Source of the DNA: Elusimicrobiota bacterium
GTDB lineage: Bacteria; Elusimicrobiota; Endomicrobiia; Endomicrobiales; Endomicrobiaceae
Assembly: GCA_031287735.1 (NCBI GenBank)
Contig: JAITSO010000014.1
Location: 1 to 39,208 of the forward strand
Reading direction: 5' to 3'
DNA length: 39,208 nt
Below are positions 27,702-39,208 of the stretch, piece by piece (within the stretch, counting starts at the first letter, position 1; every line of letters begins with the position of its first letter). Below the pieces are notes generated by a model, which searched no databases, was not told the origin of the DNA, and was given only the letters and a program-made list of their open reading frames with translations. A program made the translations under genes and the position numbers.

Positions 27702-28139
27702 GTTATTAGAGAACTACTGCAGAGTCGAATTGCATAAGTAGCCAATTGATTGGCACGAAACACCTAAAAAACAAATCGGCAATGTGGGAGTTTTTGGTTA
27801 TTAGTTGTTGTTTCATGTTGTTATGGATTTGGTGGATATTTTTAATTTAAGTGATTAGCATTCAAATGTGGCATGGAATCAGCCGCTTTTGTTTACATGC
27901 TGTTTTTCGATGTTTCTTTAAATAGCATTTATGTATTTTATTCGTTTTCTATACCTGTGTCGCTGTAAAATGCAGTAGCTTGAATTGTAATGAGCGGCTG
28001 GTCGTTGTAGACATAGACTTTTTCCTAAAAATGGTTTTAAATTTATGCGAATATTTTAGGTAATTAATGGCGTAGCTTCCTATTTAGTTGGCAGTTGCTT
28101 TAAGATTCATCAAAAACTATTAAAATCAACGGAAATCCA
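27702..28139. other. 438-base gap between glyA and smc
   Basis: No reading frame or RNA gene is supported. A short symmetric GCCAA-TTGA-TTGGC (27741-27754) lacks a T-run. The region may carry the smc promoter, but I see no convincing box pair. Confidence 0.5.
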
Positions 28140-31752: not shown

Positions 31753-32376
31753 TTACTTAAGCTGAAAAACATATGGAATGCGGACAATTTCACAATTTTT
31801 GGGGATAATTTTTCTATTGCGGTACCTTAATTTTACTTGACGGGATGCGGTTAATGCGGCTTCATCAAGACTTTTAAAACCGCTTGAAAAAACAATAGAA
31901 CTCGAAATAATTTCGCCTTTGGGAGAAATTACTGCCTCTATTACGACCTGTCCTTCTTGTTTTGCTTTTCTTGATTCTTTAGGATAAGCAGGAATTGGGC
32001 ACTTTACTACTTTCCAAGAAGCTCTATTTTCAGAGTCAGAATAATCAGAGTTGCTACGCGGGACATCGTTTCTTTCGGTTTCATAATTGTCTGGTTTGCT
32101 ATCTTTGTTAGCATAATCTGAAATTTTTTTGTTTTTCACAATTTTTTTTCTTCTTAAGTACACTTCTGATTTGCCTTCAAAATAGTCATCTTTTGCATTC
32201 ACTGCCTCATGAAATTTTTTTGAATTTATAAAATTTACCTCAGCGTAACCGATATTCGAGTTTTGGCTTTGATAAGCAAAAGCTTTATTTGCGTTTTCCA
32301 TAAACCAAAACATTCCTATAGAGTGAAAACTTAAAGACAAAAGCAAAGACGGTAAGAAAAACTTAAAAGTCGACAT
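31753..32376 (-). CDS. tonB: TonB-like energy transducer
   Basis: The 207-residue protein has an N-terminal hydrophobic helix (FFLPSLLLSLSFHSIGMFWF), a charged linker without the usual proline-rich repeats, and a C-terminal TonB domain: CPIPAYPKESRKAKQEGQVVIEAVISPKGEI, then SGFKSLDEAALTASRQVKLRYR. It would pass proton-motive force to the receptor encoded just before it, with which it overlaps by 14 bases. exbB and exbD are absent from the window. Confidence 0.85.
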   Translation of the reverse strand: MSTFKFFLPSLLLSLSFHSIGMFWFMENANKAFAYQSQNSNIGYAEVNFINSKKFHEAVNAKDDYFEGKSEVYLRRKKIVKNKKISDYANKDSKPDNYETERNDVPRSNSDYSDSENRASWKVVKCPIPAYPKESRKAKQEGQVVIEAVISPKGEIISSSIVFSSGFKSLDEAALTASRQVKLRYRNRKIIPKNCEIVRIPYVFQLK

Positions 32377-34372
32377 TGAGCTTTAACCAAAAAATTCTAC
32401 CAGGTTCGTAGATTTTTTCATTTGCCGAAAAACCCCAATTTGAATTTCCCGCTAAATTTAAATGTTCATAATAAGCTGTATCAAAAATGTTATCTATTCC
32501 GATGCTTAATTTAATGTGTTCTCTCAATAAAACTGATACGTTTGCAGATAAAATATTAAAAGCGTCGCTTTCAGAAAAGTCTTTTCCGACAACGTTTCCT
32601 TGATTGATAGACACTCTATCTTGCTTTGCAGTTAATCTCCAAATAAGACCTGTTTGCCACTTTTCGGTATCGTAAATAAGGCTTATTTTTCCTTCAAGTG
32701 GAGGAATTTGTGGTAAAGGATTATTGTCGCTTTCGTTTTTTCCATAAGAATAAGACAAGCTTGTTTTTGCTTTTACTTCTTGGGTAATTTCATAATTAAT
32801 CCCAAATTCAGAACCATAAATTTGAGCATTAATATTTTGAACGCTTTTTGATTCCATACCCATTGAGGTGGAATAATTGAAAAGAATAAAATCCTCAACC
32901 ATTCCCGCATAAGCAGAAAGCCACAAATTAAATTTATTGATTTTATATTGAGCACCTATGTCTAATTGCGTAGTTTTTTCCGGTTCTAAATATTGGAAAG
33001 CGTTTTTTCCGGTTATAATGGTATTGTTCTGAACCAATTCCCAATAATCTGGAAACCGCTGGCTATGACCGATTCCCGCATACCAAATCAAATCTTTTTC
33101 GTCTATGTTTTGTTCAAAACGCAGAAAACCGCCCGGCAATAAATTTTTACGATCATCATTTTTTGTGTAGCTGTCGTCACGGAAATCTTCTGCCTCATTT
33201 GCGTCAAAACGCACCCCTGAAATTATTTTATTTTTTTCATTTATTGACGATGTAAGCTCTGCAAAAACACCATATTTATTAAATTGCAGATCTTTGGTAA
33301 ATGAAGGTTTTGCTTTTGTTCTATTTTTGTGGGAATCTATTTGGGCGTCAATACCGCCTGTGAGATTGAAAATTTTATTGAAATTAAACGTTGCGGCAGT
33401 TCGCCCGCCATAAACAGTTCTTGACGGATTGCTCCAACTGCCACCCGCCATCATTCCGGAATTTGGTGGAGTTCTCAGCGTAAAATTATCCATAATATGA
33501 TTTGCATAATTATAATACGAAACAAATTCAATTTTATCTAAAACATCGGCTATATTTTTCCTTTCAAATTTAACGTTCGCACTTTCTCTTTTAAACTTGC
33601 TTCCGTCCATAGCACGCCCGCCATAACGAGCATATCCGCCTCCAATTCCACCGCCGATTTTTAAAATAGTATTTTCGTCAGGTGTCCAGCCTAATTCGGC
33701 GTCGCTGTTCCATTTTTCCCATTTTGAAGGAACGATATTTCCATTGCCGTCTTTATAGTCGCCGCTGCGATCGTTATTTCCAAAAAATCTGAAATATATT
33801 TTCTCTGTTCCTGCCGACGCATCTATATTTGCACCTATTCGGTTAAAAGAACCGGCAATGATATCTGTTTTTATTTCATAAGATTTGTTTTTATTTGCAA
33901 AACCTAAATTTTCTCTTTCAAAAATTATAGTTGCTCCCGACGTTCCACCTCCATAAAGCGTAGTCTGGGGACCTTTTATTATTCTGACCGAATCATATAA
34001 TTCCGGAGCAATGTATGACCCCGGAGAATCCATTCTATTTGCGCAGCCTCCAAAAATATTGCCTCCATCCGTAACAATATTTATCCGCGAGCCAAAAGAC
34101 CCTCTAAAAACAACATCAGAATTTGCACCCCCAGAACGCATTGCGGTAAAACCGGGAACAGTTTTAAGATAATCCGTCCCGTCATTTGACGGAACGGGCT
34201 GTCTTGATTGTTTTGTATTGAGTTTTATTTCCAAAGGCGAAGAAAGCGGTGTGGCTATTACGATAACATTATCAAGAGTGATAATGTTGTCGGCATATAA
34301 ATTTGATTTTAAGAAAAAAGCAAAAGTAATGATGTATGCTGCAAAAGTCCAATTTGAAATTTTGGTTTTCAT
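32363..34372 (-). CDS. TonB-dependent receptor, copper (OprC/NosA) type
   Basis: The 669-residue outer-membrane protein has a signal peptide (cleavage likely after NLYA), a TonB-box-like DNVIVIA, a plug (QPVPSNDGTDYLKTVPGF, IKGPQTTLYGGGTSGATIIFERE) and a 22-strand-type barrel ending in WLKLNVDF. Plug and barrel follow the copper-receptor family closely: GSRINIVTDGGNIFGGCANRMDSPG, GWTPDENTILKIGGG, GRAMDGSKFKRES and YYNYANHIMDNFTLR. The OprC copper ligands are conserved: a CxxxM pair (C110, M114) and HxM (H292, M294). ATG 34372 with AGGAAAAA upstream is preferred to 34408, because the signal peptide then starts properly. A BtuB role is less likely. Confidence 0.88.
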   Translation of the reverse strand: MKTKISNWTFAAYIITFAFFLKSNLYADNIITLDNVIVIATPLSSPLEIKLNTKQSRQPVPSNDGTDYLKTVPGFTAMRSGGANSDVVFRGSFGSRINIVTDGGNIFGGCANRMDSPGSYIAPELYDSVRIIKGPQTTLYGGGTSGATIIFERENLGFANKNKSYEIKTDIIAGSFNRIGANIDASAGTEKIYFRFFGNNDRSGDYKDGNGNIVPSKWEKWNSDAELGWTPDENTILKIGGGIGGGYARYGGRAMDGSKFKRESANVKFERKNIADVLDKIEFVSYYNYANHIMDNFTLRTPPNSGMMAGGSWSNPSRTVYGGRTAATFNFNKIFNLTGGIDAQIDSHKNRTKAKPSFTKDLQFNKYGVFAELTSSINEKNKIISGVRFDANEAEDFRDDSYTKNDDRKNLLPGGFLRFEQNIDEKDLIWYAGIGHSQRFPDYWELVQNNTIITGKNAFQYLEPEKTTQLDIGAQYKINKFNLWLSAYAGMVEDFILFNYSTSMGMESKSVQNINAQIYGSEFGINYEITQEVKAKTSLSYSYGKNESDNNPLPQIPPLEGKISLIYDTEKWQTGLIWRLTAKQDRVSINQGNVVGKDFSESDAFNILSANVSVLLREHIKLSIGIDNIFDTAYYEHLNLAGNSNWGFSANEKIYEPGRIFWLKLNVDF

Positions 34373-34523
34373 GAATATTTTTCCTTTTTTGTGTTTTTTT
34401 CTAATCAAGAGAATGAAACCGATTTAGAGTTATCTGCATTTAATAAAACGAAAATACTAAAAATAATTGAAATTCTGCATCAGTTATTTTCTTCAAAATG
34501 TCTTAAAAAACTTAAACCTATAT

Positions 34524-34535
34524 AACATATATGTT
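34524..34535. promoter_or_regulatory. Operator-like palindrome 1, over the transcription start
   Basis: AACATATATGTT is a perfect 12-base inverted repeat two bases downstream of the -10 TATGAT, where a bound repressor would block initiation of the receptor gene. The same core occurs in palindrome 2. Confidence 0.6.
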
Positions 34536-34615
34536 TAATCATATAACAATATTTTTGTTTTTGTCAAATCACAAAATAGTCTTTAATATACGATGTTTTG
34601 ATTTTTGAAGTTTGC

Positions 34616-34645
34616 TATAAATAAAACATATATGTTTTATTTATA
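34616..34645. promoter_or_regulatory. Operator-like palindrome 2, 30-base perfect inverted repeat
   Basis: All 15 base pairs of this stretch are symmetric around its centre. It contains the core AACATATATGTT. Its centre is 101 bases from that of palindrome 1, and it lies 49 bases upstream of the -35. Two copies around one promoter suggest a dimeric regulator, possibly with DNA looping. Confidence 0.6.
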
Positions 34646-34853
34646 TACTATAAGATTGGTAATCAGATTCTAATTTGGTCAATATATTATTTGAACTGAC
34701 GGCCGAATGAGATTGCAAAAACGTGCTATTAAAATATTTATTTATAAAAAAATAGGCATTAGCGTAACTTGCTTGCAAACAGGAAAGCATTATTACCTAA
34801 ATTTTTTAATACGAATGGGTAAAGAAGCGGAAGAATGTGTTTGAAATGATAAG

Positions 34854-37909: not shown

Positions 37910-38092
37910 ATTTTTAAGGAACAAAATTTCGCTTCCGTTTATTATTGGGTGACAAAAGGTTATTTTTTAGAAAGTAGTGATACTAACACCGATTGGAATT
38001 TTTTACCGTTGCCGGCAAATTTTTTTACTTTAAAAGAAGATGTCTTCATATTATTGTCTAATCTTCGGTGGTTTTTCTTGTTTCCGTTTTAA
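37910..38092 (+). other. Open plus-strand frame without start, in the gap before the hydrolase
   Basis: A 60-codon frame with no start codon covers most of the 177-base gap 37874-38050 and enters the methyltransferase end antisense. Its translation includes YYWVTKGYFLESSDTNTDWN. It could be a relic. The promoter of the hydrolase must also be here, but I see no convincing boxes. Confidence 0.2.
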
Positions 38093-39208
38093 CCATTGCT
38101 CTTGGGTTTCAATTGTTCTTTGAGTGTGCTCAAAATTATCGCAAACCCATTCTATTTTTTCCCTTATTGTTTTAAATGCTTCTTGACCATATAAACGCTC
38201 GTCTATCACATCAAAAGGAGTTTTCCCTTGCGTTCCTTCAAAATTTGCAACTTCAGCAATGTCATACACGTCTAAATTGTCGCCATACGGCTTGTTTTTT
38301 TCTAACCATTTAAAGTTTTTTGTTCCGTCATAACACATGCCAGTCATTATTCTTTTTAGACGCTTGACTGTGACATCGTGTGCAATGCCACAATGATTAG
38401 TGTCTGTTTTTTCGTTGTTTGTAGCTAAAATAAATGTGCGTTTCCCGCCATCTTCTTTGTTGAGTTCAAGAACAGCTTGTGCTGTCGTACCACTGCCGGC
38501 GAAAAAGTCAAGGATGAGAGATTCTTTGTTTGAAGAAGCGACTTTTACTATATTGCAAATTAGTTCTACAGGTTTTGGGTTGTCAAATATTCGTTCATCT
38601 CCAAATATTTTTTTTAGTTGATTGGTGGCAGATAAATTGTCACCATATTCTTTCCCAACCCATAAATTTATAGCTGATTGTCCGCCAATAATTCTTTCCT
38701 TCTTATATATTTTTTTTCGTGGCTTGCCGTTTCCGTTATTGGGAAAAATAATCCTATTGTCCAGCAATAATTTTTCAAAAGTTTCTTTTTTGCCAAGCCA
38801 AACCTCATCATATGAGATACCGGTAGGAGTAATAATGGTATACTTTGTACCACCTTGTCCTTTGCTTGCACACCATGGTGTGGATGTCCATTCTCCCATA
38901 ATATCGTCATCCGGGTTGGCGTAACTATCTAATCTTTTTTGAGATAGAGAAATTTTTCCAAATGTTTGGTAATTTTTTAATGCAATGCCATTTTTTGCGT
39001 AAACAATCAGATATTCTAGTACTGTTGCAATCATTTTGGCCGCGTCGTTTGGCTGGTTACTGCGGCGCCGCCAACCAATACTTGCTTCGAAATTCTTTTC
39101 CTCAAAAACCTCATCGAAAAGACCTTTGACATATGCCTGATTTCGGTCATCTATGCTGCAAAAAATAACACCTGTCTCACTCAAAAGTTGCCTCGCTAAT
39201 ACTAAACG
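38051..39208 (-). CDS. Type III-like DNA methyltransferase (Mod), C-terminal part
   Basis: The frame is open to the right edge; the TTG at 39184 is internal, since RLVLARQL precedes it in frame. The visible 385 residues carry SETGVIFCSIDDRNQAYVKGLFDEVF, a target-recognition stretch, PKPVELICNIVKVASS, and AdoMet-binding motif I LDFFAGSGTTAQAVLELNKEDGGKR. Motif I after the (unseen) catalytic DPPY is the beta-class order of type III Mod enzymes. A stop at 38051 gives a normal end. A res gene does not follow: the next gene is an unrelated hydrolase. N6-adenine methylation is expected for the family, but the catalytic motif is outside the window. Confidence 0.88.
   Translation of the reverse strand, partial: RLVLARQLLSETGVIFCSIDDRNQAYVKGLFDEVFEEKNFEASIGWRRRSNQPNDAAKMIATVLEYLIVYAKNGIALKNYQTFGKISLSQKRLDSYANPDDDIMGEWTSTPWCASKGQGGTKYTIITPTGISYDEVWLGKKETFEKLLLDNRIIFPNNGNGKPRKKIYKKERIIGGQSAINLWVGKEYGDNLSATNQLKKIFGDERIFDNPKPVELICNIVKVASSNKESLILDFFAGSGTTAQAVLELNKEDGGKRTFILATNNEKTDTNHCGIAHDVTVKRLKRIMTGMCYDGTKNFKWLEKNKPYGDNLDVYDIAEVANFEGTQGKTPFDVIDERLYGQEAFKTIREKIEWVCDNFEHTQRTIETQEQWLKRKQEKPPKIRQ

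Follow-up and report, generated by a model that had tools for sequence, protein, structure and literature searches.

What binds two matching palindromes that bracket the promoter of a predicted copper receptor, and to which signal would that promoter respond? The question is raised by a window of 39,208 nucleotides (the whole stretch of DNA analysed here) from a termite-gut-type bacterium. The window is part of a 1.36-Mb genome whose relatives are Endomicrobium-type Elusimicrobiota, including E. proavitum Rsa215 (G009; 1,588,979 bp).

A copper receptor and its bracketed promoter

The gene concerned (32363–34372, minus strand, ATG at 34372) encodes an OprC/NosA-type TonB-dependent copper receptor, which scores 696.8 bits against TIGR01778 (cut-off 472.45). 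The CxxxM–HxM copper site of OprC (PMC8610252) is kept as CANRM at residue 110 and HIM at residue 292, and both motifs are found in four of four Endomicrobiaceae receptor copies. The ligand cysteine is the sole cysteine of the receptor, save in the copy of genome G012, which has one more. Family and ligands are thus shared with OprC/NosA receptors. A gene for a TonB-family energy-transducing protein (31753–32376, minus strand; PF03544 and TIGR01352) overlaps the 3′ end of the receptor gene, and the two are probably in one operon. At the far end of the window (38051–39208) lies, as judged by eye, the C-terminal part of an apparent DNA-methylase gene of restriction-modification type.

The intergenic region 34373–34853 has the receptor gene on one side and the 3′ end of an FAD-oxidase gene on the other. 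Since the latter is transcribed in the same direction as the receptor, the region serves the receptor only. The best minus-strand promoter is TTGACA-18-TATGAT (−35 hexamer at 34567–34562, −10 hexamer at 34543–34538, 18-nt spacer; 11/12 match), which puts the expected start point at about 34531 and gives an untranslated leader of about 160 nt (34373–34531, minus strand). A riboswitch in this leader or in the metY leaders is rejected, no Rfam family being matched at threshold in either.

Operator A (34520–34539, core AACATATATGTT at 34524–34535) lies directly 3′ of the −10 hexamer, beginning 2 bases past it, and covers the expected start point. Operator B (34616–34645), like A assigned to no strand, is TATAAATAAAACATATATGTTTTATTTATA, a palindrome perfect over 30 bp, with the same core at 34625–34636 and its centre 101 bp upstream of that of A. 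A sequence-only reading had described this layout, and the exact positions bear it out: the palindrome edge given there as 49 bases upstream of the −35 is measured at 48–49 bases, and an exact search of the whole window returns the 12-mer core at these two positions only, as had been stated. The next best palindromes of the window have 10-bp arms and a loop. With up to two mismatches the 12-mer has 8 matches in the window versus 4.4 expected, so that only its exact and extended forms are informative. Two other inverted repeats were seen. One (AACATTATCAAGAGTGATAATGTT, 34265–34288, 10-bp arms, 4-nt loop) lies inside the receptor gene, in the 5′ part of its coding sequence. The other, the perfect palindrome TATCATATATGATA in the same genome (G000:C19, near 1908), lies between small regulator-like genes in a short intergenic region and is perhaps a toxin–antitoxin operator unrelated to the sulfur regulon discussed below.

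A motif shared with sulfur genes

The distribution of the core in the genome points to sulfur metabolism. The exact 12-mer has three copies in 1.36 Mb (reversed control: 0 at 0 mismatches), and the third copy is just upstream of cysK. The relaxed motif WWNCATATATGNWW has nine genome sites versus none for its reversed control; five of them are upstream of four transcription units, namely cysK, metY (coding for O-acetylhomoserine sulfhydrylase), a sulfur operon and, twice, the receptor, while three fall within genes and the remaining one in a small intergenic region. The sulfur operon is of the metB/cysK2/metNIQ/mar-like type and encodes, in order, NifX-like, cystathionine-lyase-or-synthase-like, CysK2, NifB-like, MetN, MetI, MetQ-like, NifX-like and NifH-like proteins. 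In other genera the motif precedes cysK, metY, metN, a symporter gene beside metNIQ and nitrogenase-like clusters, with the core at the cysK promoters of genera g1, g2, g7, g10, g13 and g14; a number of exact 12-mers that fall within coding sequence of the relatives look like chance matches. The motif is thus not random in the genome but common to sulfur-gene promoters. On these sequence grounds, the palindromes are the switch sequence of the Endomicrobiaceae sulfur and cysteine genes (cysK, metY, methionine importer and mar-type operons).

A 22-bp matrix was trained on 24 sulfur-gene sites of other Endomicrobiaceae genomes, the receptor and own-genome sites being left out. Among all window positions it ranks B first, at 26.3 bits (maximum 28.1), and A second, at 19.3 bits; the third rank reaches only 11.3 bits. 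In 400 kb of a dinucleotide null of intergenic composition the maximum was 16.2 bits, with none at the level of A or B. Both are therefore very probably real operators, as judged from sequence. The third-ranking match (TAAATAGCATTTATGTATTTTA, 27919–27940), about 200 bp upstream of an SMC-like gene, is in the chance range. The sites are conserved at orthologous receptors to differing degrees. In G012, whose receptor is 59% identical, sites of 22.6 and 15.1 bits bracket a TTGATA–TATAAT promoter. At the G001 receptor a single weak site scores 12.4 bits, and the receptor of G021, with a different gene order and a contig that ends early, has none in the DNA available, so that strong conservation rests on the G012 orthologue. 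E. proavitum has motif sites at cysK, metY and mar genes, and no orthologue of the receptor was detected in it. In G012 (C37:98000–116000), the receptor gene is preceded by genes that resemble those for FTR1/P19 metal uptake, FtsX-type permeases, an ABC ATPase and ApbE, and it has its own operator-bracketed promoter.

These data bear on a reading in which only A is regulatory, B being either a terminator or RNA hairpin that belongs to the FAD-oxidase gene upstream or an AT-rich palindrome that arose by chance. B does have a good RNA fold (z −5.1) and is situated about 209 nt beyond the upstream stop codon; the fold score, however, reflects the palindrome itself and nothing further. Both the G+C stem and the T run of a terminator are absent, on which ground the terminator/RNA hairpin was rejected. 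The near-maximal score of B in a matrix trained elsewhere speaks against chance, and the G012 receptor and sulfur promoters also have an upstream partner site. A non-regulatory B is accordingly highly improbable.

The identity of the targets speaks against a metal sensor. The sequence-only reading had proposed a dimeric, perhaps metal-responsive repressor of copper-type uptake. Its first part is supported, as operators of a dimeric regulator do bracket the copper-type receptor's promoter; the metal response is not supported, given that the targets are otherwise cysteine, methionine and organosulfur genes and that Fur is absent from motif-bearing genomes. Control of copper uptake by Fur, Zur or a copper sensor bound to the palindromes would suit the OprC ligand set of the receptor, the single FUR-family gene of its genome and the FTR1/P19-like surroundings of the G012 orthologue. 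It is nevertheless very unlikely, as the remaining motif targets are sulfur genes and FUR was not found in G046, G013 and G001, which carry the motif; a Fur-type box was rejected for the latter reason.

Paired sites around a sigma-70 (TTGACA/−10) promoter are found at metY and at the following marX-like operon of E. proavitum, at marX/H-like genes of G012 and G021, at metY2 of G021, at a gene of G014 and at both receptors. The upstream site is at or near the −35 in the sister genomes and unusually far upstream in the receptor studied here. Looping between the two palindromes, also suggested by the sequence-only reading, is a variant of the operator explanation that is compatible with any regulator identity. 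A promoter at which a single dimeric regulator has two matching sites would allow such a loop. The centres of the pairs are, however, 44, 55, 55, 59, 66, 68, 68 and 101 bp apart, several of these distances being short for looping, and correspond to 4.19, 5.24, 5.24, 5.62, 6.29, 6.48, 6.48 and 9.62 helical turns. Whole-turn spacing is not observed and there is no common phase, so that the pairs lend no support to a loop in which the helical faces must be fixed. A repressor-mediated loop joining A and B is quite unlikely.

A CymR-like Rrf2 protein as candidate regulator

The best candidate for the regulator is a CymR-like Rrf2 protein encoded elsewhere in the genome (G000:C7:17618–18007, minus strand). 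It belongs to the Rrf2 family (PF02082, 94.8 bits, cut-off 30), has no cysteine and thus lacks the Fe–S ligand cysteines of IscR and NsrR. It matches S. aureus CymR end to end (E 1.5e-15) and is 61–67% identical to the G001, G009 and G014 proteins. In the CymR equivalog model NF047409 it scores 89 bits, under the cut-off of 195, and is therefore named CymR-like rather than CymR. Its C-terminus is DGYMFYL; the GYMFY tail is kept among the relatives, followed by a terminal Leu in most copies and by Ile in G013 and G022. The protein thus resembles CymR of B. subtilis and S. aureus in its Rrf2 fold without Fe–S cysteines, in a similarity that spans the full length and takes in the GYMFY tail, in the prediction that it controls cysteine and methionine supply, and in the adjacency of rrf2 and cysK in sister genera. 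The differences, apart from the sub-threshold score, are an operator centred on CATATATG and often paired around the promoter, a Gram-negative host, and the presence among the predicted targets of an outer-membrane copper receptor and a methylthio-alkane-reductase-type operon.

Gene neighbourhood and co-occurrence link the protein to the motif. The rrf2 gene is divergent from cysK in G009 (E. proavitum), G021, G012, G014, G013 and G022, with a CATATATG site in the intergenic region of all but G022. In genus g7 it is near the metNIQ/symporter cluster. The rrf2 gene of the genome under study has no motif site of its own and does not adjoin cysK. Genome-by-genome motif counts are too noisy for a co-occurrence analysis, and the metN promoters of g7 were compared instead. 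Of the genomes with Rrf2, 7/7 carry the metN operator (G046, G049, G052, G065, G073, G075 and G079, with intact or decaying rrf2; one core change, CATGTATG, in G049 and G065), and it is absent from 7/8 in which rrf2 was not found (G017, G041, G044, G045, G054, G055 and G062), giving a Fisher p of 0.0014 with kinship ignored. The exception, G067, is 69% complete and was counted against co-occurrence. Within g7, cysK and/or rrf2 are split or interrupted by stop codons in G069, G073, G075 and G079, and the cysteine regulon is seemingly decaying in these lineages. A regulator gene that keeps company with the motif, for which the sequence-only reading had suggested looking, is thus found in rrf2, beside cysK and in step with the g7 metN operator.

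Another sulfur regulator, for example of the ArsR or LysR type, might own the sites. The survey covered the Rrf2 and FUR families, the Rrf2 role is predicted from sequence, and cysK promoter sites and Rrf2 genes are not one-to-one: G022, G004, G015 and G011 have Rrf2 and no exact core at cysK, and G019 has the core at cysK and no detected Rrf2. This alternative is unlikely in view of the two neighbourhoods in which Rrf2 adjoins motif-bearing genes (cysK and metNIQ/symporter) and of its tracking of the g7 metN operator. Rrf2 is inferred to be the protein that binds the cysteine- and methionine-gene operators. The explanation as a whole, that A and B serve as operators for the repressor of a cysteine/sulfur regulon and that this repressor is the CymR-like Rrf2 protein, can be held with good confidence.

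Copper uptake, cysteine status and sulfur salvage

How oprC is down-regulated has been described as unknown, and NosA is reported to be copper-repressed (PMC8610252); the present receptor differs from NosA in its putative sulfur-regulon operator. Copper uptake here appears to be under a cysteine regulator and not a metal sensor. Most likely, the CymR-like repressor stops receptor synthesis when cysteine is plentiful. Rrf2 would then occupy A, over the −10 and +1, and B, upstream of the −35; A would block RNA polymerase and B would add occupancy. As cysteine falls and O-acetylserine rises, binding would weaken and the receptor–tonB operon would be made. The least certain step is sensing, for which the repressor may form a complex with CysK by means of its C-terminal tail, DGYMFYL. 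CymR of B. subtilis works together with CysK, and O-acetylserine, the substrate of CysK, serves as a readout of the cysteine pool (PMC2940859); partners of CysK tend to have a terminal Ile (PMC4961446, PMC12895370). The cysE and cysK genes are present, and by analogy the same mode of sensing may operate in Endomicrobia.

The nitrogenase-like members of the predicted regulon resemble the MarBHDK sulfur-salvage system. Its MarD/MarH structure, 9fmg, is that of methylthio-alkane reductase (PMC12552129). The NifD-like subunit of E. proavitum scores 434 bits against MarD, versus 128–149 bits for nitrogenase alpha-labelled chains outside that pair, and the NifH-like subunit of G021 scores 489 bits against MarH versus 282 for nitrogenase, so that both match the Mar proteins far above nitrogenase. 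In E. proavitum (C1:835000–849000) the D and K genes are downstream of metY in the same direction. Unlike the described MarBHDK system, the Endomicrobiaceae cluster is predicted to be under an Rrf2-type operator, and that of E. proavitum has been published, as cited in PMC11257099, as a nitrogen-fixing group IV nitrogenase. The sulfur operator at this cluster argues for a role in sulfur salvage, though it does not prove one.

S. aureus without CymR becomes copper-sensitive (PMC2869319), so that an interaction of copper with thiol status is known. Such an interaction, or a copper-bound sulfur cargo, is a speculative reason for sulfur control of the receptor. It is conceivable, if somewhat short of probable, that Endomicrobiaceae couple copper uptake to thiol status by a CymR-like Rrf2–CysK switch under which an OprC-type receptor, cysteine synthesis and the methylthio-alkane-reductase cluster are repressed in concert. 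Low cysteine would then be the only condition under which copper import is safe or needed, or the receptor would import a copper-bound organosulfur compound, and the ‘group IV nitrogenase’ of E. proavitum would serve sulfur salvage.

A literature search on regulons turned up none described for Endomicrobia. In a phylum for which few regulons are described, the present analysis predicts a transcription-factor regulon whose operator is defined, and places an OprC-type copper importer under a putative sulfur regulator. As E. proavitum is cultured and has the same operators, the response of its nitrogenase-like cluster to sulfur versus nitrogen becomes testable.
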